This document shows positions 1,235 to 14,055 of a stretch of DNA of 64,000 nucleotides, piece by piece. How positions within the stretch are numbered: position 1 is the stretch's first letter; each line of letters begins with the position of its first letter. Both the position numbers and the translations under genes were made by a program. Below the pieces are notes generated by a model. That model did no database searches. It saw only the letters and a list, made by a program, of their open reading frames with translations, and was not told the DNA's origin. The stretch comes from a virus. The stretch is taken from IMG/VR virus record IMGVR_UViG_3300043540_000321, positions 1 to 64,000 of that record. One strand, 5' to 3'.

Positions 1235-2788
1235 TCAGCGTCCGATCAACGTGAACGCTGAGTCCACACCGCACTTTAGAACAGCCTCTCGGACGTAATC
1301 ATGCACCTCGAATTGGGAATTTCTATCGGTAATCAGATGGACGAAGGTGTCCGTTGGATTGATAAACCGCTGTAAGTAGTACTCAATGCTGTTCTCAATG
1401 CCCGCGGGGGACCCGAAGTTCATCCGCATGGCGTCTGCAATCTTAGATTTCTGAGCGGCCGTCGGGTTGTTCAACAGGTCCTCGATAGCCCTATTCATCG
1501 CGTGTTGATACTCTTCCGACTCCAGGTCGAGGCCCTCAATCTTAAAGTCATCAATTAAGCCTCGGATCAGTCTCAGAGGCGGTTTGTAGGACATCGATAG
1601 AAGAACATGACTGGAGGCATGAGTAGCCCGCCCAACTATTCTTGGTGAGTATCCAGGCTGGCGACGAATGGTGTACGTCCAGCCCACATGGAAAGGGTCT
1701 AGCTGAGGACCAACGAACTGAATGTTCTGTTGCCCGCATACAGCCAATAGCACGCCGCCGTCCTTCATCCTTGGGTAGAGTATCTCAGCGAGGACCTTGT
1801 AGTCCACTAGAGACGCTTTCCCTAAGGGCATTTCAGCGAAGCAAAGGTCTACAGAATCCAGGGGCAGGTCAGAGAGCAGTTTAGACCACTTACCAGAGAA
1901 GGTTTCTACCCGCTGGTGGGCTACAGAGACTACTTCTGCTTCGAGGATTTCTTCCTCTTTTCTCCTTCGCTCATCCTCCCTTGGACGATTGAGCGCCTCC
2001 TTCACAGTGAGTCCTTTCAAGAGGTGCGGAGCGACCTCTAGCTGCCGTCTGACAGGGAGTTTCGCTAGTCGGCTGAGTTCTGTTCTATCCTCGGCCAGGT
2101 CCGTGCTGATTAAGAGTTGCTGAACTTCTTTCGGGAGACCCGCCGCCTCCATCTGGTGCTGGCGGTACCTCTCCACAATGTCACCGGCTCGCTTGCGGTC
2201 TACCTTCTCGCCTACCTCAGCCAGGGCCAGTATTTCATGCACGGCTCCGCTTGGAACGTCACCCCTGGAGAGGTTATACAAAGTAGACAGAGGAAGCTTT
2301 TCAAGCTCCTCTGGAGTATACTTCTCAGCCATTTGGGCCACGTTGACCCAGTTGTTCGCCGTATCGTAGCTGATGTGACCCTCAAACTCTTCCTGTACCC
2401 ACTTCATATAGGTTCGATTCGGAAGTTTCTCTCGCACTCGGAGGAACCATCTCCCTATCCGAATAATGCCGACAAGGGTCCGCTTGAATTCCTGTTTGAT
2501 CTCGCGAGCAGCCTCTAATGCAAGGGTCTGCGTTGCTTTATCTTTGATTTCAGAGTAGTTGAACCGTAGGGGTTCGAGCTCAGCGATCGCACTGTCTGGA
2601 GCGACAACCAGGGCGTTCTTGATACTTCTCCGGCGACCACTCGTTGTAGCCGTCTCTTTGCCTGGGGTGCTTGAGGTTACTGCCTTCTTTGTAGTGTTCG
2701 AGGTTGCCGCTTTTGCTGTCGTCTTAGTGCTTGCTTTTGCTGTCGTCTTAGTCTGCTTTTCAGCAGGTCGAGTGCGTCTTGTCGCCAT
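1235..2788 (-). CDS. ParB-position protein: DUF3102-like plus decayed methyltransferase-like domain
   Basis: 517 aa, 57 bp downstream of parA in the same orientation, where a centromere-binding ParB would normally be. Residues 1-60 are a Lys/Thr/Ala-rich low-complexity tail that probably touches DNA. Residues ~95-170 resemble DUF3102 (IGRWFLRVREKLPN, then a WV..AQMAEKY helix). Residues ~205-280 are helical and Leu/Arg-rich, in the place of a ParB helix-turn-helix. Residues ~300-410 have the strand order of an N4/N6 DNA methyltransferase around motif IV, but the DPPY position reads AEMPLG and a LYPRMKDGGVLLAV strand follows, so methylation is unlikely. Known: DUF3102 proteins occur on plasmids and phages, often near ParA. 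Inferred: this is the DNA-binding partner of ParA. The boundary between the helical part and the methyltransferase-like part is approximate. Confidence 0.65.
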   Translation of the reverse strand: MATRRTRPAEKQTKTTAKASTKTTAKAATSNTTKKAVTSSTPGKETATTSGRRRSIKNALVVAPDSAIAELEPLRFNYSEIKDKATQTLALEAAREIKQEFKRTLVGIIRIGRWFLRVREKLPNRTYMKWVQEEFEGHISYDTANNWVNVAQMAEKYTPEELEKLPLSTLYNLSRGDVPSGAVHEILALAEVGEKVDRKRAGDIVERYRQHQMEAAGLPKEVQQLLISTDLAEDRTELSRLAKLPVRRQLEVAPHLLKGLTVKEALNRPREDERRRKEEEILEAEVVSVAHQRVETFSGKWSKLLSDLPLDSVDLCFAEMPLGKASLVDYKVLAEILYPRMKDGGVLLAVCGQQNIQFVGPQLDPFHVGWTYTIRRQPGYSPRIVGRATHASSHVLLSMSYKPPLRLIRGLIDDFKIEGLDLESEEYQHAMNRAIEDLLNNPTAAQKSKIADAMRMNFGSPAGIENSIEYYLQRFINPTDTFVHLITDRNSQFEVHDYVREAVLKCGVDSAFTLIGR

Positions 2789-2845: not shown

Positions 2846-3622
2846 TCACCGGTGCAAATTCTCGACCCGATCGAGGTATTCATTGACCAAATTAACATAA
2901 GCGACCGAAACTGGCGCACTTCGGTACCGAAAAATGGACTGTCCACGGGCTGTTGCATTCACCTGACGACGGCTGTAAGGGATGACGGTTTCAAACACCA
3001 GGTCGCCCAGAGCCTCGCGCACATCGGTAATAGATGCCTGTGTAGACGGGCTGTTCGGTCGCTCTACCAAGGTGAGCACAATGCCAAGTACCTGTCCGAT
3101 CGGGTAACTCAACATCTCTCTTAAAGAAGAGAGGCGATCGAGCAATGTGATCACTCCCTCCTCACTGAGGTAGCGCAGTTGGACAGGGACGAGCAGGTTT
3201 TGCGAAGCGACCAGGGCGTTGATGGGTAAGAGAGAAAGAGAAGCTGGAGAGTCGATGAGGATATAGTCGAACTGTTCAAATAAAGGCTCCAAAGCCTGTT
3301 TCAGGACTACTTCCTTGCTTGGATGACCCAGGAGTAGGGCATCGAAGAAGATAAGGTCGGGACTGGCAAAGATAATCGATAGGTTTTCAGTAGGCGTTTG
3401 CTGGACAGCCTCCACGATCGGCATCCCTCGAAACACGTCCATCAGTGTCGGCGTGAGTTGAAGGCGACTGTACCCCATCGCTAACGCCGCGTTCGCCTGA
3501 AAGTCGCAGTCAACAATTAAGGTTCGATAGCCCTTCATTGCTATTCCCTGGCCCAAGGCGATACAGGTAGTAGTCTTACCGACGCCACCTTTAGCGTTGA
3601 CGATCGCAGTTATGTGAGGCAT
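2846..3622 (-). CDS. parA: ParA-family partition ATPase
   Basis: 258 aa, a typical length for the short ParA class without an N-terminal DNA-binding domain. The deviant Walker A motif KGGVGKTTT is at residues 11-19, the A' region is LIVDCDFQANAA, and the Walker B strand is YILIDSPASLSLL. ParA proteins bind the nucleoid as ATP dimers and are released by a ParB-type partner, which moves plasmid copies apart. It is transcribed first, followed by the 517-aa ParB-position protein, and about 23 copies of a heptamer lie directly upstream as a candidate centromere and operator. Chromosome-type ParA is unlikely given this context. The ATG at 3622 begins exactly at the conserved first beta strand. Confidence 0.92.
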   Translation of the reverse strand: MPHITAIVNAKGGVGKTTTCIALGQGIAMKGYRTLIVDCDFQANAALAMGYSRLQLTPTLMDVFRGMPIVEAVQQTPTENLSIIFASPDLIFFDALLLGHPSKEVVLKQALEPLFEQFDYILIDSPASLSLLPINALVASQNLLVPVQLRYLSEEGVITLLDRLSSLREMLSYPIGQVLGIVLTLVERPNSPSTQASITDVREALGDLVFETVIPYSRRQVNATARGQSIFRYRSAPVSVAYVNLVNEYLDRVENLHR

Positions 3623-3681: not shown

Positions 3682-4120
3682 CTGTTAGTGAAATGTTAGT
3701 GGATTTGTTAGTCCACTAACATTCAAATGTTAGTGGACTAACATCTGACCACGATTTACTAACATTTCACAAACACCCGACTAACATCTGACCACGATTT
3801 ACTAACAGTTGAATGTTATCGAACTGATGTACTATGTTAGGCGTTAGTAAATTTGCCAAAAAGCGTTAGTCGTGGAAATGTTAGTACGAACATTTGGATG
3901 TTAGTCCACTAACATTTCCACTAACATCGGCTGAAACCCCTGAAACTTCGTGACTAACATGTTAGTTGGATGTTAGTCCGAGAGCCCAAAATCCACTAAC
4001 ATTTGCCTGAAAGTTCGCACTAACATTTTTACTAACACCCCCAACTAACACGAGAATTGGGCGTTTGAGCCTCCCAGCCTTAAAAATCTAAAGATAAACT
4101 GGGGAAAAGTGGATGTTAGT
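3682..4120. repeat. Iteron-like array of TGTTAGT/ACTAACA
   Basis: In the 582-bp gap between the divergent genes at 3622 and 4205 I counted 11 copies of TTAGT in TGTTAGT-like context and 12 of the complement ACTAA in ACTAACA-like context. Several are arranged as short inverted pairs, such as GTTAGTCCACTAAC. Spacing is irregular (about 10-35 bp), most copies lie in 3682-4050, and a last copy is at about 4112. There is no unique spacer pattern, so it is not CRISPR. Such arrays are typical of plasmid origins (iterons) or of parS/parC centromeres that double as parA operators. Any promoter for the plus operon at 4205 would lie at its right end. No gene is visible here. Confidence 0.8.
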
Positions 4121-4204: not shown

Positions 4205-4942
4205 ATGAGAGATTTCAAGAGGTCGCTACCTCAGAAAATTTTTATCCTCGTCATTACGGGGTCTACTGCCTTCATATTTACTGCTGCAATCACCGGTCTC
4301 TGGTCGGCGGCAAAAGACGCTGGCGCTATTAAGCCGGGCTTTAGGTTCGGCACCTTCGCCACGATCGTGGGCGTGTCCGGACTTGCCTCTCTGGTGACGT
4401 ATGGCGGTCTGATGCTTGACGAGGAGATGCGTCGGCGGGCAGCGATCGCAGAGGAAGAAGAGGAGCTGGCGAGAGAGCGGGAGAGGATGCGTCAATACTC
4501 TTATCCGCAACCGTATCCTCCGTCCTACCCGCCTCAACCTCCCCTCTACCCTCAGCCTGACCCTGCTCTAGCGGAGGCACTCAACAATTTACAGTTGGCC
4601 GATGTTGATTCCTTGTCTTATACACCGCCTCAGCGTCAGCCTCAGCCTCAGCCCCAACTTCGTCCTCCTTCGAGTAAAGAACCAACGGTGGGTCTCGACC
4701 TTGACTTTAGTCACCTTCGAGAACAACCTCCTTCTAGACCACCTGGGATAAGAAGAACCTCTGGTCTGGTTCCTCCTCGATTTGCAGATGAGGCACCACA
4801 AGTTGAGCCTCCCCAGTCAGGTACAACTTCGGAAACCGAGGAGGATTTTTGGGCAGACTCGCCTCTAGGAGTTCAACCTCAGGAGACAAACCCTCCTAAA
4901 ACCGAATCGAAGGCGAGCTATTTGGATAACTTGGGTCTCTAG
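4205..4942 (+). CDS. Pro-rich membrane protein with two N-terminal TM segments
   Basis: 245 aa, first gene of the plus-strand membrane/secreted operon. Two hydrophobic helices lie at about residues 10-32 and 47-68, followed by a highly charged coiled-coil-like stretch (Glu/Arg-rich, ~74-96), then a long Pro/Gln/Tyr-rich disordered tail with PYPPSYPPQPP and repeated QPQ. The hairpin-in-membrane layout with a large soluble tail is like scaffold or channel subunits of secretion and conjugation machines, but I recognise no family. No clear ribosome-binding site precedes the ATG. The next gene starts 14 bp downstream after a strong AAGGAGG. Confidence 0.7.
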   Translation: MRDFKRSLPQKIFILVITGSTAFIFTAAITGLWSAAKDAGAIKPGFRFGTFATIVGVSGLASLVTYGGLMLDEEMRRRAAIAEEEEELARERERMRQYSYPQPYPPSYPPQPPLYPQPDPALAEALNNLQLADVDSLSYTPPQRQPQPQPQLRPPSSKEPTVGLDLDFSHLREQPPSRPPGIRRTSGLVPPRFADEAPQVEPPQSGTTSETEEDFWADSPLGVQPQETNPPKTESKASYLDNLGL

Positions 4943-4956
4943 TCAAGGAGGAAACT

Positions 4957-5673
4957 ATGGAGCTGGAATCAGAGTTCCAAAAACCCGGTGGGTACAGAGC
5001 AAAACTAAAGTTCACGGGTAACGTGGACGAGTTTCACGCGGTCTATACCTCAAACAACTACTATATCCACACAACTTCCTTGCCGCCGGTTCAGTTCTTC
5101 CAAACCATGCACCAGCCGATTCAGATTGCTCCGGCAGCTCCGCATACGGTGAACAACAATAACTTGTTGTTGCCGGGACAGGAGTATGCTTACACACTGC
5201 CATCGGCACCACTCCCTGCGTTACCTCCAGCTCCTACCCAGCCTTCCAACTACTGGTCTCAGACAGTAGACACATCGGCGCACACTCTAAACGGTCTACA
5301 GAGAACGTTGCAGGGTATCAACAGTCCCTCTAATCAAGGAGGTGGGTTTTCGAAATTCATTCGGGGACTGTTCAGCAAGAAGGAGAAAGACCCGCTCGCT
5401 CAATACCAGGCGATGTTGGCACAAGTCAATGGCCAGAAGGCAGGAGGGGGTTTTAATCATAAGATGCTGATCTACGCTGTTGACGCACTACTCGTGATAA
5501 TGGCTCTCTATGTTGTGTTCAGTCCTTCGGGACAGAACCAGATTAAAAATTATCTGAGGCCGCTTACTAACCTTGTTAACCCTTCCTCTGTGGAGGGGAG
5601 CAAGTCGCAGGTAAGACCTCAGGTAAAACCTCAGGTAAAACCTGGTCCTATGGAAGATCCCAACAAAGTGTAA
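4957..5673 (+). CDS. Pro-rich single-TM protein
   Basis: 238 aa with the ATG 8 nt after AAGGAGG, the best ribosome-binding site of this operon. The N-terminal ~60 residues look folded (GYRAKLKFTGNVDEFHAVY), followed by a Pro/Ala-rich linker. A single hydrophobic helix (LIYAVDALLVIMALYVVF) lies at about 170-188, and a short tail with three copies of a QVKP-like unit ends the protein. The DNA of that tail is a 12-bp tandem repeat at about 5606-5645. It resembles its neighbours at 4205 and 5678 in composition and layout, which suggests three membrane subunits made together with the FtsK-like ATPase. Family not recognised. Confidence 0.65.
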   Translation: MELESEFQKPGGYRAKLKFTGNVDEFHAVYTSNNYYIHTTSLPPVQFFQTMHQPIQIAPAAPHTVNNNNLLLPGQEYAYTLPSAPLPALPPAPTQPSNYWSQTVDTSAHTLNGLQRTLQGINSPSNQGGGFSKFIRGLFSKKEKDPLAQYQAMLAQVNGQKAGGGFNHKMLIYAVDALLVIMALYVVFSPSGQNQIKNYLRPLTNLVNPSSVEGSKSQVRPQVKPQVKPGPMEDPNKV

Positions 5674-5677
5674 GTCA

Positions 5678-6334
5678 ATGACTCAATTCGACAGAGAGGA
5701 CTTTGAGTCCCTTCTCCAAAAGACGATTAACGCAACTGTAGTCCATGAGGGTGAAGAAGTGACAACGGGCTATGAGAATTTCCCGCGCCCGCCCCACCCC
5801 TCATCACCTCATAAGGCAGAAGCTGGGAAGTCCGGCTATACTCAATCTCGGCACACTCAGTCTCATCCGTCTTCGCGTCCGACTCCCCAACCAGCCCGAC
5901 CGCAGCCTTCGACATCTCCGAGGGGGTCTCAATCCACTGGTTTTCCAAAACAAGGTGGGTTAGGATTAGAGAATAGCCAGTCTCAACCTGAGAGGAGGGA
6001 CTCTCCATCTGAGAAAACCCCTTTTTGGGGTCGTTTCCAGAGAGGTCAGGGTAGTCCTTCTGAGAAAGGAGAGGCGTCTAAACCCGCATCTGCGAAAAAG
6101 AGCTGGAAAACTTTAATAAAGAAATGGCAGTCTCATTTAGGGGACTTGAGTGTAACCTTCCTGGCTTGTCATTTCATTGCCCACCTATTCCACCTGTTTT
6201 TGAGACCGGGGCCTTACGGCTACCTTCTCGATTTCAGACTCTTGATAGTGGTTGCTGCGATAGGAGGAATTCTTCAGCAAAAACAGGTGGTCACGATAGC
6301 GATCTGCCTCCTACTTAGTTTTCTGATGTTTTAA
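5678..6334 (+). CDS. Pro/Ser-rich C-terminal membrane protein
   Basis: 218 aa. Residues ~1-125 are Ser/Pro/His/Gln-rich and appear disordered. A basic segment (KKSWKTLIKKWQ) leads into about two C-terminal hydrophobic helices (~155-175 and ~185-216) that end the protein. It follows its neighbour by 4 bp and precedes the FtsK-like ATPase by 5 bp, so the four genes are tightly coupled. The TTTAATAAAG at 6112 is one of many copies of the over-represented octamer. No known family is recognised. The tail-anchored layout would leave the disordered part in the cytoplasm beside the ATPase (inference). Confidence 0.62.
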   Translation: MTQFDREDFESLLQKTINATVVHEGEEVTTGYENFPRPPHPSSPHKAEAGKSGYTQSRHTQSHPSSRPTPQPARPQPSTSPRGSQSTGFPKQGGLGLENSQSQPERRDSPSEKTPFWGRFQRGQGSPSEKGEASKPASAKKSWKTLIKKWQSHLGDLSVTFLACHFIAHLFHLFLRPGPYGYLLDFRLLIVVAAIGGILQQKQVVTIAICLLLSFLMF

Positions 6335-6339
6335 CGAGT

Positions 6340-8511
6340 ATGCAACTAACTGGCCTCCCGAATAAGGAGGTAATCAACCACCAAATTGAGCGAATCAAGA
6401 AGCTCAGCATTAATAACCGGGAGGTGTTGCGCGACCTCGGCACCATAATAATCCCGAATTTTGAGAAGTGGTTACCATTCATCGATGAGATGAAATTAGG
6501 CATATCTGCTCGAGAGGTCAAACAACTTCTGGCTACGCAGTTTTGTCTTCGTGTCTTGATAGACACTCAAGGAAAACCACCCGACGATCCCGCCGTCAAA
6601 GAAGGTCTAAAGCTATGGATAGACTGGGTGAACCACTGGCAAGTTGGGGATTCCAAAGAGCAAATCCTAAGAGACGCGCACACTATTATGCAGGCCGCAG
6701 CACCTACTTCTAACTCGACTTCCTTCGCTAACTCACCTCGAACTGCCCCCACAGCCAGTTCGGGACCGAGCGAGCCGTCAGCATCATCTCAGTTGACTCG
6801 TGCGAATCCGACGGCGGTAGTCCGACGGCCAGTTGAGACTCAAGTTATCAAGACTATCGGTCGGAACACTCTTCTTAAAGGAGAGATGGTCGAGCAGGCC
6901 TACAGTTCGATTGGAAAGATCGAGTTCCTTCCAGAAGACTCATCTGACCGGGGGCTTAGGCATGACCGCCTACGTTTTAAGAAGCCGTTAACGGTCACTT
7001 TTGCCGCCTGTAAAAAGGTGCTGCAGGAGGTGATCAGTCACGCCGGAGTGGACCCTGAAACGGAGATACTCTTCAGGGCGTTGGCGAACAACCAGTTCGA
7101 CCTGCACATTCCCAGGCCGCCGGAGCAGTGGAAGATTCTCAGCTACACGGATTTCTTACACGCAGGATGGGATAAGTCGAAGTCGACTTTGGGCTCCTAT
7201 CTCTCTCGGAGATTTTTTGTTCCGCCGCATGAGCCTCCTCGAGTCCCGGTCGGGGTGAACCTGGATATGGAAGAGGTGGCTATCCGGTTTAGTACGGGTG
7301 TGTTTATCACTGGGAAACCAAACCAGGGTAAATCCGAGCTGGTGAAATCCATCCTGATGACCCTGGCGATCGGATTCCAACCGAACTATCTATGGTGGGT
7401 AGGCGCGGACTGGAAAGACGGGGCCTTACTCGATAAGTTCTCTTGCCTTCCTAGCTGTGTGCAACCGATCGCCAAGTCGGAAAAGGAAGCCCAGGAGCTC
7501 ATGAAGTGGTTGAAGGCTCAGTTCAAAAGGAGGGAGCGACTTCTCGACCCCTATAAGAAATATGGTGTTGAGAACATTTGTCACTACAACAAACTGCCGG
7601 ATGTTGAACCCATGCCCTGGCTGCTCCTCTTCTGGGAAGAGCTGGCTCGAGGTCGTGAAGTCTTAGGAGAGACTCAAGACGAGTTTCTCCGTTCGGTCTG
7701 TCAATACTGGCGGTATATCGGGATTATTCCCGTCGCCACCACCCAGTATCCCTCTCAGAATATATCTGGCTCTGGACCCGGTATGCGTTCTGCCTATGGG
7801 ACAAAGGTTGCCTTCAAAAATGATGAGGGAGCTAAACTCCTATTTGGTGAAAGTAGCATTCACGCTAAGTACGCTCAGGCTCTCAACGGACCTGGGGACT
7901 GTATAGTCGTAGGTGACGATAGCTTCGATCGTTGCCAGACATTCTTTGTCGAGCCAGAAATCTTGCTGCAGATTATCGATGCGATATCTCAGCGTGATGC
8001 TGACTATTCCCTACCAGAGCTCGCTCTGATTGGACCAGAAGAAGAGGAACGAGCGGTGGCTTCGGACCCTTCTTCGCCAGCCTCCTCGGAATCGGAACCG
8101 GATCGGGAGGAAGTGCTGGCTATGAGTACGAGTTACCAGGAAGAGACTATTACGGAAACGGACGAGAGCGATCTCTCGGACCTGCCCAATAATATGCTCG
8201 ACATGGTACGAAGGTTTCAGGATTACAACAGATTGATGCAACTGGATGCCGACCTGAAGAAGGAAGGTAAGCCAGGCGTCACTCAAAACCATAAATTGGC
8301 TATGCTGGTCGGAGACTATCTCTATCCAAAAGGAGACCCCCGGCGTGGAGTGTACCAGGGATGGTTATCTGTTGATGAATTTAAGAACCTTGACAAATCC
8401 GATCCGAGATTAAAGGTGTCTAAGGGAGGTCGTTACTTAGATAACGCGAAGCTCCGCTTGGAGGAGATTATCCAGAAAGTCTCCGGGGTAAACCAGCCTG
8501 TGGCTTGCTAA
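6340..8511 (+). CDS. FtsK/HerA-superfamily DNA-translocase-like ATPase
   Basis: 723 aa. An N-terminal helical domain is followed by a Ser/Pro linker (~125-165), a mixed alpha/beta region, and a P-loop ATPase core. Walker A is GKPNQGKSE at ~325, Walker B is PWLLLFWEEL at ~430, and a later segment (ALNGPGDCIVVGDDSFDRCQ) matches the end of the FtsK motor domain where the ring contacts DNA. Residues ~620-723 form a C-terminal accessory domain. There is no TM segment, unlike FtsK, but three small membrane proteins are encoded immediately upstream and could anchor it. Known motors of this superfamily pump DNA or protein through a membrane or pack DNA. Whether this one serves conjugation-like transfer, segregation or another secretion role is not settled. 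Confidence 0.8.
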   Translation: MQLTGLPNKEVINHQIERIKKLSINNREVLRDLGTIIIPNFEKWLPFIDEMKLGISAREVKQLLATQFCLRVLIDTQGKPPDDPAVKEGLKLWIDWVNHWQVGDSKEQILRDAHTIMQAAAPTSNSTSFANSPRTAPTASSGPSEPSASSQLTRANPTAVVRRPVETQVIKTIGRNTLLKGEMVEQAYSSIGKIEFLPEDSSDRGLRHDRLRFKKPLTVTFAACKKVLQEVISHAGVDPETEILFRALANNQFDLHIPRPPEQWKILSYTDFLHAGWDKSKSTLGSYLSRRFFVPPHEPPRVPVGVNLDMEEVAIRFSTGVFITGKPNQGKSELVKSILMTLAIGFQPNYLWWVGADWKDGALLDKFSCLPSCVQPIAKSEKEAQELMKWLKAQFKRRERLLDPYKKYGVENICHYNKLPDVEPMPWLLLFWEELARGREVLGETQDEFLRSVCQYWRYIGIIPVATTQYPSQNISGSGPGMRSAYGTKVAFKNDEGAKLLFGESSIHAKYAQALNGPGDCIVVGDDSFDRCQTFFVEPEILLQIIDAISQRDADYSLPELALIGPEEEERAVASDPSSPASSESEPDREEVLAMSTSYQEETITETDESDLSDLPNNMLDMVRRFQDYNRLMQLDADLKKEGKPGVTQNHKLAMLVGDYLYPKGDPRRGVYQGWLSVDEFKNLDKSDPRLKVSKGGRYLDNAKLRLEEIIQKVSGVNQPVAC

Positions 8512-8514
8512 CCT

Positions 8515-9384
8515 GTGTTATTTCGACTGCTTGCAGTAGCGATTATCTTATTCTCAGTAAAAGGTCAGTTGATGAAGGTGTTGGTTGGTCTGAGATCTCT
8601 CTCAGCCTCCGCACCTTCAGTTGTATCCATACCCGAAAAGCCGAAGGTGACAGACCCGCGCAAAGTCAGTGTTCAAGTCAGAGTTCAAACCATCACTGAA
8701 GACCGCGCAAGGTATAGTTTCGGGTCTGGAACTTTTATTAAACCCAATATTGTGCTGACCAACGCGCATGTGACCCAACCGTCAGGGGATGGTACGGTGT
8801 CCATCAATTTGGACAGCGATCCAACTGTTCCGCCCCTGGTTGGAAAAATTATTAAACAAGTGAAGTCGCCTGACCAGGAGGAAGGAACAGACCTGGCCCT
8901 GGTCCAGGTAGAAGGAAACCATCCTTACATAGATCTCTGCTCAGAGCTTCCACCTGTCGGTCTAGTGATGAAGATCCTGGGACATCCGAGAGGGTCAAGA
9001 GATGTTGTAGAGACCGCAGCGGTTGCGGCGATCGTCAAGCCCACTTTTCTGGAACTGAATCTGAAGCTCAAACGGTTTTATCCCGTCCAACCGGGCAATA
9101 GTGGAGGACCTCTGCTTCAGGGAGATTCAGATTCTGGTTACTGCCAGGCCGGAGTCGTCAGCCAAGTAGATACACGCCCAGGTTATCCTCGCCCCAATAT
9201 ACAGCGGGTGCGAGCGCAGTCCATCAAACAGATCAAGAAGTTTTTAGATACGTTTTACAGTCGCCCTTTTTCATGGCATGACAAAAAGGCGGCGGAGAAA
9301 GTTCTTAGACCTATAGAAGGACTTCCATCGGAGTTGGTATCAGTAGCCTGTTTGTTCGCATGGAATCAAAGGGATCGGGTGTAG
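8515..9384 (+). CDS. Secreted trypsin-fold serine protease
   Basis: 289 aa, GTG start 3 bp after the previous stop. A hydrophobic N-terminus (LLAVAIILFSV) looks like a signal peptide or anchor. The catalytic triad can be read: His85 in TNAHV, Asp126 in GTDLALV and Ser196 in PGNSGGP, the pattern of the S1C/HtrA-like group. No PDZ domain follows, and the chain ends about 90 residues after the Ser. HtrA-like proteases act in the periplasm on unfolded or specific proteins. Here it sits in an operon of membrane and exported proteins after the FtsK-like ATPase, so a role in maturing that envelope machine or in the host envelope is plausible. Confidence 0.88.
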   Translation: MLFRLLAVAIILFSVKGQLMKVLVGLRSLSASAPSVVSIPEKPKVTDPRKVSVQVRVQTITEDRARYSFGSGTFIKPNIVLTNAHVTQPSGDGTVSINLDSDPTVPPLVGKIIKQVKSPDQEEGTDLALVQVEGNHPYIDLCSELPPVGLVMKILGHPRGSRDVVETAAVAAIVKPTFLELNLKLKRFYPVQPGNSGGPLLQGDSDSGYCQAGVVSQVDTRPGYPRPNIQRVRAQSIKQIKKFLDTFYSRPFSWHDKKAAEKVLRPIEGLPSELVSVACLFAWNQRDRV

Positions 9385-9427
9385 TCAATGAAGCGCACCG
9401 TTAAGTGTTCACAAAAGGGAAACTAAG

Positions 9428-10105
9428 ATGTCGAATTTTACTGAAGAGAAAAAGCTTGCCACTACGCTCGAAGAGGCTCGCGAGTGTTGCCGTCGTCTCC
9501 TCTCACTGGGTAGCTTTTATCTGGCTGAGGACAAAGATTTTGACTGTGTTAGCTATCTAGAACCCGGCCGAGTCCAAGACCTAAGTGATGATGAACTGAG
9601 GAGAGTCTGGTTCTCGCCCAATGGATTCGATAAGACGATTGTCGGTCGCAGCAATTCTCGAGTTCTGGAAAAACTTTTCTGGAGCGACATTTACGATAAT
9701 CCTGTTTTGGGAACCTGCTTCCGAGTTTATTTTATGTCGCTTGGGATTATAGAGGTTCTCGAAAGTCTGGCCGATTATCCTCTCCTCGATGAGGATGTAT
9801 ATCATGAGGAGATGGCTGAAGCTCAAGAAGAACTCTGGAATGACTGGCTTAAAAGTGAAGTAGTCTCGGAGATTGAGGACTTTCTTAGAAAGGAGTATGG
9901 AGCGTCCTACGTCGAGGTCGACTATAGATGCGGTGATGAGGAGGAGTTCTTCAAACTATTCTGGGAAAAGCTGAACGAGACCGGTGGCGAGTGGGTTGAA
10001 GAGCAAGATGGACTGTCTTGTCGCGGCTATACTGAGGCAGCTAGAGCCTTCGCACTTAAAGAATTGATGCCGATAGGACTCTCGGTTTTCTTCGAAGGAC
10101 AGTAA
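9428..10105 (+). CDS. Acidic hypothetical protein
   Basis: 225 aa, strongly acidic (runs of Glu/Asp) with aromatic residues and no signal peptide or membrane helix, in contrast to all its neighbours. The ATG follows AAGGGAAACTAAG, a reasonable ribosome-binding site, after a 43-bp gap. Acidic cytoplasmic proteins of this size on mobile elements are sometimes DNA mimics or chaperones, but nothing specific can be seen. The next gene starts 2 bp after the stop. Family not recognised. Confidence 0.6.
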   Translation: MSNFTEEKKLATTLEEARECCRRLLSLGSFYLAEDKDFDCVSYLEPGRVQDLSDDELRRVWFSPNGFDKTIVGRSNSRVLEKLFWSDIYDNPVLGTCFRVYFMSLGIIEVLESLADYPLLDEDVYHEEMAEAQEELWNDWLKSEVVSEIEDFLRKEYGASYVEVDYRCGDEEEFFKLFWEKLNETGGEWVEEQDGLSCRGYTEAARAFALKELMPIGLSVFFEGQ

Positions 10106-10106
10106 G

Positions 10107-10724
10107 ATGTTGGGCATTCTATTCAGACTGGGGGCTGTGGGTATCATCCTTTTCCTCTGCTGGGGAACGATCCGATCCGCTCTGGCCCCCTTCTTTACGC
10201 AACCTGCAAATATCAGCTCAAAGATTATTGAGATCCGAAAGCGGTCCGAGCTGGCGACGGCATCTACGACCTCTCGCGTGACCGTGCAGGAAGAGCATCA
10301 GTCCACGAATACCGTGGCCAATGCTTTAGACTCCCTGGGTTTTCGCACCGGGCGGTCGCGTATCTCCCTGTCCGTTAACGTAACCGTAAAGGCGGGGGTC
10401 AATCTGGAAAAGGCAGAGGTTCAGGGGAACACGATCGTGCTGCCCTCTCCTCAGATCCTGGATGCGTTCGTCGACACCAAGACGATAAGTGTGGGTTGGG
10501 TCGAGAAAGGTGTGCTGGCGGATGAGACACATAAGCTGACTCTTCCGGCACAAAATGAGGCGCGTGCCCAGGGCATTGTCGATGCTTGCACCAACAATGT
10601 CTTAGGAAAGGCGGAAGAACAAGCTCTATCCACCGTCCGTAGACTCGTACCAGAAGCTGTTGTTAAAGTAGAGAAAGGTCAGAACAGTACTTGCAGAAAA
10701 GTCAATAGTTCTACCGAAGATTAA
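10107..10724 (+). CDS. DUF4230-family membrane-anchored protein
   Basis: 205 aa. One N-terminal helix (LGAVGIILFLCWGTI) is followed by an extracytoplasmic domain. The pattern fits DUF4230: a Thr/Val-rich strand (TTSRVTVQEEH), then VKAGVNLEKAEVQGN, the conserved LPSPQILDAFVD, and a C-terminal helix with spaced Ala residues. Known: DUF4230 proteins are widespread in bacteria, membrane-anchored, and of unknown biochemical role. Its start overlaps the previous gene's end closely (2-bp gap), so it belongs to the operon. Confidence 0.72.
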   Translation: MLGILFRLGAVGIILFLCWGTIRSALAPFFTQPANISSKIIEIRKRSELATASTTSRVTVQEEHQSTNTVANALDSLGFRTGRSRISLSVNVTVKAGVNLEKAEVQGNTIVLPSPQILDAFVDTKTISVGWVEKGVLADETHKLTLPAQNEARAQGIVDACTNNVLGKAEEQALSTVRRLVPEAVVKVEKGQNSTCRKVNSSTED

Positions 10725-10748
10725 CTCAGTAGCTAGTTTTTATTAAAA

Positions 10749-11231
10749 ATGATTCAGCTCGAATGGTTGCCGACCGGATGGCGGCAGACTCTTTTCCTCA
10801 CATCGATGCTCACTTTTGGACTGGGGATTACCCTGGTCCTCAACTGGAACCTGGGGTTTATCATCGCGGTCACCACGATTGGGATTCTCACCCACTCATT
10901 AATGACTCACCGGCAGCACCAGTTACTCCTAACGGAGTGTCAGCTCCTCCGCTCTGAGCTGGTGTATGTGCAGGAACAACGAGTGAACTCGAACGGGATA
11001 TTGGAGGAGTGGACAGAGAAAGCGATCGCAAAGGATAAACAGGGGCGAGTCACTTGTCAGTACTGTAACTCGAAGATGCCTTTGCTGGAGTCATATCCTT
11101 TTGATCCGCATCTACACCTCAAGACTAAGGGAATGCCCTGTCTAGTTCCGATCGCCCGGTCTTATTTTTGTCGAATAGACATGGTACCTCCCCACATATG
11201 GGAGCATCACATGGAGAAGAAAAAGGTCTGA
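10749..11231 (+). CDS. Two-TM protein with CxxC motif
   Basis: 160 aa. Two hydrophobic helices span about residues 14-50, followed by a helical stretch and a C-terminal domain with CQYC, plus Cys and His residues (HLHL, later C and C) that could bind zinc. It follows a TTTTTATTAAAAA sequence containing the genome's frequent octamer, and no clear ribosome-binding site is present. The downstream gene begins 3 bp after its stop. Family not recognised. The zinc-ribbon idea rests only on the CxxC and later Cys residues. Confidence 0.6.
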   Translation: MIQLEWLPTGWRQTLFLTSMLTFGLGITLVLNWNLGFIIAVTTIGILTHSLMTHRQHQLLLTECQLLRSELVYVQEQRVNSNGILEEWTEKAIAKDKQGRVTCQYCNSKMPLLESYPFDPHLHLKTKGMPCLVPIARSYFCRIDMVPPHIWEHHMEKKKV

Positions 11232-11233
11232 AG

Positions 11234-12010
11234 ATGGCGATCGCTCGGAGGGTCAGCCTCCTTCTAATACTCTTCGCAGTCATCTCCGGTGGAGGCGCGG
11301 CGGTTAATAAAAAAGGGAGTAGTAAACCACAACCTCAGTTTGACCTCGCTGCAGCGATCGCCTCTTATATAGATAGGACTTACAAACCGAAAGGTTATCA
11401 GCTCCCCAGAGGAGAGAACCAGTATACAGTGGTGTACGTTGCGGGTATGAATGCCGACGGCACCTTGAACAACAACGAGCCGAATAGGTACAACGATCGG
11501 AGAATTCTGCTAACATTTGCTCAGGGTAAACCTCAAATTGCCGGGAACTGGCAGGCGACAGTCAGCCCAGGCTCAGTCTATGAAAATCCTCGTCTCGCCT
11601 ATACCCAGTTCGGACTTTTCCCCCAAGCCTACCGAATAGGCATACATGGGATGGTGTGTCCTCATGAAGCCTTGGTTCAGGTCAAGCCAATTATTGTGGC
11701 TCGAGGTCCAAACCAGCAAGGTGAGTATACCAACACCCGGATCGGGAAGAGGCGCGACGAAGGGGTGTTCGCTATCAACCAGCATGGTCCCTGTAAGGAC
11801 TCCGACACGGTTGATGGTTCGTCGGAAGGATGCTTAGTCGCTCGAAGAATGTCGGAGCATCGACAATTTATGTCTATGTTAAAGACAGATATTCGATATA
11901 AGACCAGTCCGGTCGGCCCGCCCATTCACTCAGGTGACCCTCCGTATCGTACGTTCGCCTGGGATCTCATAATTATTAGCGGGCAGAAACTTTTGGAGTC
12001 CACGAAGTAG
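11234..12010 (+). CDS. Secreted protein with HG..SxGC motif (L,D-transpeptidase-like?)
   Basis: 258 aa counted from the ATG at 11234; a longer frame upstream overlaps the previous gene and is rejected. The N-terminus (RRVSLLLILFAVISGGGAA) is a convincing signal peptide. The C-terminal half has GVFAINQHG and, about 15 residues later, SSEGCLVARR. A His followed by Ser-x-Gly-Cys recalls the active site of YkuD-type L,D-transpeptidases and of some phage proteins that act on peptidoglycan, but the surrounding sequence is divergent. If the motif is real, this enzyme would edit the cell wall, which suits an operon for an envelope-spanning machine. Assignment to the family is uncertain. Confidence 0.6.
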   Translation: MAIARRVSLLLILFAVISGGGAAVNKKGSSKPQPQFDLAAAIASYIDRTYKPKGYQLPRGENQYTVVYVAGMNADGTLNNNEPNRYNDRRILLTFAQGKPQIAGNWQATVSPGSVYENPRLAYTQFGLFPQAYRIGIHGMVCPHEALVQVKPIIVARGPNQQGEYTNTRIGKRRDEGVFAINQHGPCKDSDTVDGSSEGCLVARRMSEHRQFMSMLKTDIRYKTSPVGPPIHSGDPPYRTFAWDLIIISGQKLLESTK

Positions 12011-12012
12011 CC

Positions 12013-12534
12013 ATGAAACTTTTTCTAACGATAATCTTAGTCGGGGGTATTGGAGCCGGAATTTATAAAGCGGCGACTCCTTCTTCTGCATCTACTAACC
12101 CCAGCCCAGCCTCAGTTACTCAGTCGAGTCCTGAGTCAACTGCTAACGAGGTCGTCATTCAAGGTGAGGAACCAAAAGTCGCAAGGGTTGAGTATCCATC
12201 GGGCGGGGAGAAGTCTGATAAAGCTCCTTGCCGTGACCTTGGAACCGGTGACACCGTGGTCATTATTGAGACGAGCACTCCTGACCGAGTAAAGTTGGCG
12301 GAGCAAGTTATCGCCGAGCACAACTTGAAAGGAACATACTGTGCCTCTCAAAGAACAGGGCGGACGGTATGGATGTCTGAGCAGGTTGAGGGTGCAACCT
12401 CAATGGATCGAGCTAAGAATTCTGTTCCGATATTCGACTACTTCCGGTCAGTTGGGCTTGTCTCGCCTGTTAACCTATCTAGGGGAGCCAATCAAGCAGA
12501 GCGCCCGACGAACTGGTCAGGAACCCAGCCCTAA
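12013..12534 (+). CDS. Secreted hypothetical protein
   Basis: 173 aa with an N-terminal hydrophobic segment (FLTIILVGGIGAGIY), a Ser/Pro/Thr-rich linker to about residue 50, and a small folded domain with two Cys residues that could pair across the envelope. It starts 2 bp after its upstream partner, is the last gene of the plus-strand operon, and is followed directly by the iscB element, which may have cut the operon off from further genes. Family not recognised. Confidence 0.58.
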   Translation: MKLFLTIILVGGIGAGIYKAATPSSASTNPSPASVTQSSPESTANEVVIQGEEPKVARVEYPSGGEKSDKAPCRDLGTGDTVVIIETSTPDRVKLAEQVIAEHNLKGTYCASQRTGRTVWMSEQVEGATSMDRAKNSVPIFDYFRSVGLVSPVNLSRGANQAERPTNWSGTQP

Positions 12535-12539
12535 AGGAC

Positions 12540-12770
12540 TGAGCTTGTAGACTCCCCGACGCTTAGGCGCGGGTACAAACCAAGCTATTCTGACCAGCCT
12601 AAGGCTTTCGAGGTCTACGTTTTTTGAGTCACGACACCCTGGAATGCGACGCTAGTTCCTTGCTCTGTCATCTGCAATTAAACAGTCTTAAGGTCACTGA
12701 GACAGTGTTGCAGGTCTAAAAAGCTCTTAAAACATTGGCGAAGCGAACATTACTTTTAGGAACCAACGCA
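12540..12770 (+). ncRNA. Putative omega RNA of the iscB element
   Basis: The ~230 bp without a gene upstream of iscB contain several hairpin-capable stretches, including CCCCGACGCTTAGGCGCGGG at about 12553 and a run around ACTGAGACAGTGTTGCAGG near 12696. Known: IscB nucleases use a structured guide RNA (omega RNA) of about 200-300 nt encoded just upstream of their gene, with the guide at its 5' end. Position and length fit. If so, the guide would be read from the sequence near 12520-12545 at the element's left end. I have not folded it. Confidence 0.45.
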
Positions 12771-12773
12771 ACC

Positions 12774-14055
12774 ATGTTGAAACCCAATTTTGTTTTCGTG
12801 CTAGACACCAATCACAAACCGCTCACACCTTGCAAGCCTTCAATGGCGCGTAAGTTGCTGAAGGCTGGAAAAGCGGCGGTGTTTAGACGATTCCTGTTCA
12901 CCATCATCCTTAAAAAGGAGGTAGACGCTACGCCAGAACCGATTGAACTCAAATTAGATCCCGGTTCCAAAGTTACGGGAATCGCTCTCAAGCAAGGCAG
13001 TAAAGTTTTTTTTGGTGCAGAACTCACCCATCGCGGTCAAGCCATCAAAGCGAGTCTAGAATCACGCCGCTCATTGCGACGAGGTAGACGCGCTAGACAG
13101 ACTCGCTATCGTCAAGCCCGGTTTCTCAATCGGACTCGTCCTAAAGGTTGGTTAGCGCCTAGCCTTCAACATCGAGTCGAAACAACCCTAACTTGGGTGA
13201 ACAAATTCATCAAACTTGCACCCATCGGTTCCATCGTTCAAGAATTGGTACGCTTTGATTTACAGCAGGTTGAGAACCCTTGAAATCTCAGGGATTGAAT
13301 ATCAGCAAGGTGAACTCGCGGGGTATGAGGTCAGAGAATATCTGCTCAACAAGTGGGATAGAAAATGCGCTTACTGCGGTGCTGAAAACATTCCGCTTCA
13401 AGTGGAGCATATTCACCCAAAAGTCAAAGGTGGCTCTAACCGCATCTCTAATCTGTGTCTGGCTTGTGATGACTGCAATCAGAAAAAAGGCACTCAGGAC
13501 ATCAAAGCTTTTCTAGCCAAAAAGCCTGATCTTTTGAAACAGATTTTGAGTCAAGCAAAACGCCCTCTCAAAGATGCAGCGGCGGTCAATTCAACCCGAT
13601 GGGCATTGTTCAATCGACTGAAAGAAACAGGTCTACCTGTCAGTACGGGGTCAGGAGGTCTAACCAAGTTCAATCGGACTCGTCTAGAACTGCCTAAAAC
13701 TCACTGGCTAGATGCGGCTTGTGTCGGTCAAGTTAACAAGTTGGAAGTGTTGACTAATCAACCGTTACTGATTAAAGCAACGGGTCACGGGTCGCGTCAA
13801 AGGTGCCGCACTGACAAGTTTGACTTTCCCAGTCGATACGTGCCCCGATTCAAGTTTGTTCAAGGCTTTCAGACAGGCGACATTGTGAAAGCTATTGTCA
13901 CATCTGGCAAGAAAGTTGGTGAATATGTCGGACGGGTTGCGGTTCGTTCTAGCGGCTCGTTCAACATTTCCGACAAGTCGGGATTGGTTCAAGGCATCAG
14001 CTACAAATACTGCAAATCTATTCACAAAAAGGGCGGTTACTCGTATGGCTTTTGA
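12774..14055 (+). pseudogene. iscB: iscB, RNA-guided HNH/RuvC nuclease, broken by one frameshift
   Basis: The reading frame from the ATG at 12774 gives the N-terminal PLMP-like domain, RuvC-I (KLDPGSKVTGIAL), the Arg-rich bridge helix (SRRSLRRGRRARQ) and RuvC-II (VQELVRFD). It stops at TGA 13281-13283. One base over, the frame continues as EISGIEYQQ, the HNH domain (CAYC..VEHIHP..CNQKKG), RuvC-III (HWLDAACVG) and a complete C-terminus to 14055. Removing one T at 13280/13281 restores a full IscB of about 427 aa with all catalytic residues. IscB is the ancestor-type relative of Cas9. Either this copy is dead or the frame is a sequencing or assembly error; programmed frameshifting is less likely. 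The 3' end overlaps the next gene by 11 bp. No tnpA is adjacent. Confidence 0.88.

Follow-up and report, generated by a model that had tools for sequence, protein, structure and literature searches.

The window analysed here is a 64,000-nucleotide stretch of viral DNA, bases 1-64000 of the IMG/VR record IMGVR_UViG_3300043540_000321 (195,211 bp). At positions 4205-12534 it carries a ten-gene operon arranged around an FtsK-type ATPase. This operon is real and forms an undescribed system that recurs in a sister virus and in cyanobacterial plasmids. It may be a machine for translocating double-stranded DNA (dsDNA) across the envelope or septum, powered by FtsK and free of a type IV secretion system (T4SS); a probability of about 0.4 is assigned to this reading. 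DNA, rather than protein, is a plausible cargo.

To judge from its genes, the window derives from a large contractile-tailed cyanophage and not from an ordinary plasmid. The record encodes a terminase (sharing 34% identity with the one in Microcystis phage Ma-LMM01), a major head protein, a head maturation protease, a tail sheath and a baseplate wedge, and these tailed-phage genes displace the plasmid context implied by a preliminary description of this DNA. Ribonucleotide reductase, a Dda-like helicase, NblA, ArdA and M15 peptidases are also encoded. A search for relatives of the major head protein found none.

The ten genes and their recurrence

The operon region is filled by ten open reading frames (ORFs) on the + strand, separated by 14, 4, 5, 3, 43, 1, 24, 2 and 2 bp. 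The preliminary description had the ten co-directional genes right; its gap range of 2-43 bp was slightly off, the smallest gap being 1 bp.

g1, 4205..4942, + strand: two transmembrane (TM) segments, then a long Pro-rich tail, with EEDFW near the C-terminus
g2, 4957..5673, + strand: Pro-rich in its N-terminal part, with a single TM segment close to the C-terminus
g3, 5678..6334, + strand: Pro-rich N-terminal part, C-terminal TM segments
g4, 6340..8511, + strand: FtsK/SpoIIIE-type motor, 723 residues, without a TM segment
g5, 8515..9384, + strand: trypsin-like serine protease (Trypsin_2, 2.5e-12), N-terminal hydrophobic segment, GTG start
g6, 9428..10105, + strand: 225 residues, weak match to phrog_3906
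g7, 10107..10724, + strand: DUF4230 (5.1e-12), N-terminal TM segment
g8, 10749..11231, + strand: two TM segments, then a CxxC-containing domain
g9, 11234..12010, + strand: membrane-anchored, L,D-transpeptidase (YkuD) fold, conserved H138, H184 and C200
g10, 12013..12534, + strand: exported or anchored, one N-terminal TM segment

The gene inventory given earlier largely stands: the FtsK ATPase lacking a TM segment (g4; Pfam FtsK_SpoIIIE, E 9.8e-9; TM scan negative), the trypsin-like exported protease (g5), the DUF4230 protein (g7), the two-TM protein with CxxC (g8, the motif being kept in its Kovacikia homologue) and the SxGC protein (g9) are all present, but g6 and g10 had been left undescribed. 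Pro-rich tails had been ascribed to three membrane proteins. Only g1 has one; g2 and g3 carry most of their Pro-rich sequence ahead of the TM segment or segments. The TM scan also found a single N-terminal hydrophobic segment in each of g5, g7, g9 and g10. A crude codon-usage gene caller missed g1, g3, g5 and g8. Despite this omission g3, g5 and g8 are backed by homologues in other elements; g1 as a gene rests on its position and architecture.

The operon is not a product of chance, because its arrangement is repeated in a sister phage and several plasmids. In the sister phage IMGVR_UViG_2510065010_000001 (195,039 bp), matches were found for 69 of the 175 predicted proteins; the terminases are 61% identical, the structural proteins mostly 25-75% and the motors 22% (1.45e-14). 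One end of that genome encodes, in order, a 223-residue protein, two-TM, one-TM and C-terminal-TM proteins, FtsK, a trypsin-like protein, a 348-residue relative of R088 from the present phage, a two-TM protein and an M23 protein. Among ten related terminase contigs the motor was found only in the sister phage, most of the others being fragments. Plasmid pA of Kovacikia minuta carries homologues of g4, g8, g9 and g10 with the order kept and TM genes preceding FtsK, and the 49-kb IMG/VR contig L143 follows the Kovacikia order with FtsK, a g10 homologue, g8-like genes and M23. An SSB-like gene and a gene for 190-200 residues apparently flank the operon in both Kovacikia pA (L009 25513-26663) and L143 (11725-12823), which suggests a larger element backbone in common. 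The Kovacikia region was considered as an intact phage relative and rejected. The FG-GAP repeat protein of this phage (1704 residues, G000, the 195-kb record, 169964-175078) has a homologue encoded close to the operon in Kovacikia (29%, 1228 residues).

More distant sets occur in the Nostocales, at ten loci in seven strains or metagenome-assembled genomes, on plasmids and chromosomes. They contain helix-turn-helix (HTH), ~200-residue and TM proteins, L,D-transpeptidase-like, M23 and lysozyme-like proteins and FtsK, with a RusA-like gene in several; the lysozyme-like and RusA-like labels were given by eye, Pfam showing no match. In the Cylindrospermopsis siphophages CrV-01T and Cr-LKS4, genes for HTH, ~216-residue and small TM proteins and FtsK form one run, and their motor shares 35-36% identity with the Nostocales type.

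Conservation differs from gene to gene. Counterparts of g1 in the sister phage and the Nostocales have the same position and architecture, with a similar acidic-x-W motif in their tails, and g2 likewise has an architecture common to the elements; single-sequence hhalign detected no homology of g1 or g2 with the other elements. The sister-phage gene in the position of g3 is related to it (hhalign 95%, partly on low-complexity sequence), C-terminal-TM genes also occupy this position in Kovacikia and L143, and the sister phage has a counterpart of g5 in the corresponding position (hhalign 88%). Kovacikia homologues were found for g8 (hhalign 87%; against L143 weak, 25%), g9 (45%) and g10 (30%, 7.6e-10; L143 1.5e-7). 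On the plasmids searched g7 had no match, and a g8 profile run over 386 cyanobacterial genomes is uninformative, having given no match while its positive control was silent too. Near-identical copies of the operon were absent from viral and genome collections, and the sister-phage terminase gave a single 28-bp match in the 386 cyanobacterial genomes, judged to be chance. By these comparisons the gene set appears conserved, mobile and fast-changing.

Markers of a T4SS were not found. A VirB4-type ATPase (PF03135) had no match at E 0.1 in the 195-kb record, Kovacikia pA or Calothrix p1, a test whose sensitivity for cyanobacterial VirB4 is unproven, and neither phage has a MOBV or MOBP relaxase. 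The plasmids do encode relaxases, located elsewhere on the record. The preliminary description had suggested an envelope-spanning machine around an FtsK/HerA ATPase that is not a T4SS, and had named scattered orthologues or a standard conjugation system as outcomes that would count against it. Its reading is supported on this point: the neighbourhood is kept across phages and plasmids, and the VirB4 and relaxase searches, carried beyond the window to the whole record, were negative.

Motor, putative wall enzymes and upstream repeats

The g4 motor is 26% identical to that of Kovacikia over 537 residues (1.65e-40) and 28% to that of L143 over 514 (1.2e-41). In a PDB profile search with the family alignment, the nearest solved motors were FtsK (2ius, 5e-53), EccC/EssC and the coupling ATPase of entries 6o1w-6o1z ('DNA translocase coupling protein'; 6o1w, 3e-26), which we take to be TcpA-like. 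A C-terminal segment of g4, SKGGR, aligns to the Calothrix motors. The widespread cyanobacterial FtsK proteins of ~870 residues were considered as relatives of the operon and set aside. By eye these (L060-L093) are fusions of an RNase-D-like exonuclease, a PD-(D/E)XK-like nuclease and an FtsK motor, present in many cyanobacterial genomes, usually as one copy per genome.

Sequence searches of Pfam, NCBIfam and PDB gave no match for g9. A 27-sequence alignment, in which H138, H184 and C200 are invariant, yielded an AlphaFold2 (AF2) model with a predicted local distance difference test score (pLDDT) of 85.5. Its top Foldseek matches are mostly LD-carboxypeptidases with weak E-values. A second comparison (VIA) gave a best Z of 9.6 with a root-mean-square deviation of 3.5 over 170 residues, and the matches listed there are L,D-transpeptidases, LD-carboxypeptidases or other YkuD-fold proteins. 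The Cys in SxGC and the conserved His residues agree with the YkuD fold. As modelled, g9 is a wall enzyme by fold that may either cut or link peptides; members of its family occur widely in proteins that bear peptidoglycan-binding domains. Another family, with the motif GHTDxG...NxGxFS and no Pfam match, is encoded within the operon of the sister phage, of Kovacikia and of L143 (L122:1090-2136; L009:21689-22447) and away from it in this phage (G000 115680-116219; L004:13680-14216). The C-terminal part of a 4700-residue phage protein (G000 51512-65614) resembles the lysozyme-like protein of a Calothrix plasmid operon (37%, 142 residues).

Two further features lie upstream of g1.

Repeat array, 3683..4120, no strand: consensus ATGTTAGT in both orientations, most copies spaced by 10-12 bp or multiples of this
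ParA-type ATPase, 2846..3622, - strand: divergent from the operon, Pfam AAA_31 6.5e-43, a possible partner

The preliminary description lacked such arrays, which accompany the operon in some elements. Between ParA and g1 there are 23 GTTAGT cores in ~440 bp (the maximum for any 6-mer in 500 shuffles was 9), and TGTTAGT/ACTAACA occurs 21 times in the array versus 9 in the rest of the 195-kb record. Upstream of the operon in Kovacikia pA stand 12 copies of TGTCCA, most of them at 11-bp intervals (shuffle maximum 7), and in L143 there are 7 of TGTTAC, mostly in 11- and 22-bp steps. The ~11-bp phasing is alike in the three arrays, of which that in L143 is the weakest; the repeat sequences differ. 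Possible roles of the array are operator, centromere and loading site. NCBIfam ParA families score below cut-off against the ParA-type ATPase. Beside it lies a gene for a 517-residue protein (window 1235-2788) with a weak DUF3102 match, a candidate ParA partner or array binder. At the other end, HEARO RNA (RF02033, 153.8 bits) is found at the end of g10 (window 12516-14055), followed by an IscB-like HNH ORF split over two frames (12735-13283 and 13216-14055).

Weighing the explanations

In the proposed translocation machine, g4 would assemble into a cytoplasmic ring that pumps DNA, while g1, g2 and g3, by their predicted topology, would provide an inner-membrane platform whose long, flexible Pro-rich stretches may dock the motor. 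Loading of the motor would take place at the upstream array or close to it. Peptidoglycan might be opened locally by g9, and in the relatives by M23, lysozyme-like and R088-like proteins, and g5 and g8 may act in the maturation or assembly of envelope parts. Element DNA would be moved, with neither relaxase nor T4SS, in double-stranded form across the envelope or the septum between adjoining filament cells, much as actinobacterial TraB works with its clt repeats and the Spd membrane proteins. It is doubtful, but conceivable, that cyanophages and cyanobacterial plasmids have in common an FtsK machine, free of T4SS and relaxase, that carries dsDNA from a cell to its neighbour, as along a filament, and so lets a phage or plasmid spread with neither virions nor pili.

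Translocation is favoured by the position of the motor next to several small membrane proteins (five of five element types compared), by the recurrence of anchored peptidoglycan enzymes in these gene runs (the g9 fold, M23, lysozyme-like), by the occurrence on phages, plasmids and chromosomes, by the negative VirB4 result together with relaxase-free phages, by ~11-bp-phased arrays in three elements, by the profile search that puts FtsK, EccC/EssC and the 6o1w-6o1z ATPase nearest, and by the parallel with Streptomyces conjugation. Several points weigh against it. Transfer as such is a prediction from sequence, and a tailed phage, which brings its own packaging functions and tail, has no obvious need for a transfer machine. 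The motor is related to the protein-secretion ATPases EssC/EccC as well. Homology of g1 and g2 between elements is architectural only, and the AF2 model of g4 (pLDDT 36) is unusable for judging a C-terminal DNA-binding domain. The Kovacikia motor stops shortly past its ATPase domain, a short C-terminus that gives no support in that element to the motor itself binding the array. In L143 the 6-mer count equals the shuffle maximum (7 vs 7), only the geometry being notable, and arrays were absent from the sister-phage and Nostocales stretches tested. ParA adjoining the array suits a partition site equally.

That last point leads to genome maintenance, in which ParA and the array would form a partition site and a motor tethered to the membrane by g1-g3 would clear the resident phage or plasmid genome from the closing septum into daughter cells, as SpoIIIE/FtsK do. 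The ParA gene placed divergently next to the array, repeats that are short and occur in either orientation, as in a centromere, and related sets on large plasmids agree with it. FtsK genes of Bacillus phages have been discussed in terms of genome segregation into spores (PMC8597652). Segregation has no need for peptidoglycan hydrolases, a protease or a CxxC protein, however; no ParA homologue was detected in the sister phage at E 1e-4, and the array also stands upstream of the operon where a small HTH-like gene, not ParA, comes next. This explanation is rather unlikely. Export of proteins by an EssC/EccC-like ATPase through a g1-g3 channel, with g5 as processing protease, is unlikely. Some secretion systems do include an exported protease, and type VII EssC is the best NCBIfam model for both g4 (2.2e-11) and the Cylindrospermopsis phage motor (1.9e-31). 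The g4 score is nevertheless far under the curated cut-off (42 vs 778 bits), g4 has a single motor domain where EssC/EccC have several, the best score of the Nostocales motor is to E. coli FtsK, and no secreted substrate was recognised, no dedicated WXG100 search having been made.

The peptidoglycan enzymes and many membrane proteins, the further M15 peptidases of the phage and the wide spread of the g9 family with peptidoglycan-binding domains would also suit a phage module that remodels or seals the infected envelope, in superinfection exclusion, lysis timing or septal-wall control in filaments, with FtsK disturbing host division. Like sets are found on plasmids and chromosomes, where lysis genes make little sense, and the constant core is the motor while the hydrolase type varies between elements; envelope remodelling is decidedly unlikely. 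Virion assembly is very improbable. Tecti- and cortico-like viruses with internal membranes do use FtsK/HerA-like packaging ATPases (PMC7824862), but this record has a tailed-phage terminase, tail sheath and major head protein, the terminase makes such a packaging role unneeded, and the operon also occurs on plasmids that lack this terminase.

Comparison with known systems

FtsK-based dsDNA transfer has been described for mycelial actinobacteria. If the translocation reading is true, a comparable cyanobacterial machine would represent a second lineage, in another group containing multicellular bacteria. It would open the question of lysis-free cell-to-cell spread of phages, and the gene set would be a marker for recognising undetected mobility of large cyanobacterial plasmids. 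No described cyanobacterial FtsK transfer system was found in a literature search that covered subscription journals poorly. The earlier statement that the operon fits no known defence layout holds, in that no PADLOC defence gene set was recognised; there were only motor-domain and protease-domain matches and one marginal match.

Type VII EssC/EccC proteins share a profile-related FtsK_SpoIIIE motor domain with g4. They differ in their multiple motor domains; g4 has one, lacks a TM segment, scores below all cut-offs and has no recognised substrate or partner genes, WXG100 not having been searched for specifically. The coupling ATPase of 6o1w-6o1z and FtsK are alike in the motor domain, with little similarity beyond it, and no T4SS genes surround g4. 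The Cylindrospermopsis phages resemble this phage in having HTH, ~216-residue and small TM proteins followed by FtsK in a single run; they differ in siphophage-type tail genes, a motor closer to the Nostocales type and a run without a hydrolase.

The nearest working parallel is Streptomyces TraB with clt/TRS and Spd, taken as an analogy and not as family membership. Streptomyces conjugation uses one FtsK homologue (TraB), 8-bp TRS repeats at clt and, for spreading, 3-6 diverse Spd proteins (PMC4170104), and in transfer of this FtsK-based kind dsDNA moves with no relaxase or T4SS involved (PMC3158045). Like the TraB/Spd systems of pSVH1, pIJ101 and pSAM2, the present set combines one FtsK-type motor (g4) with small diverse membrane proteins and a short-repeat array, lacks relaxase and T4SS, and is found with hosts that include multicellular filaments. 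It differs in belonging to another phylum, in its peptidoglycan hydrolases, protease and CxxC proteins, in being carried by a tailed phage, and in an array that is a candidate motor-binding site only.

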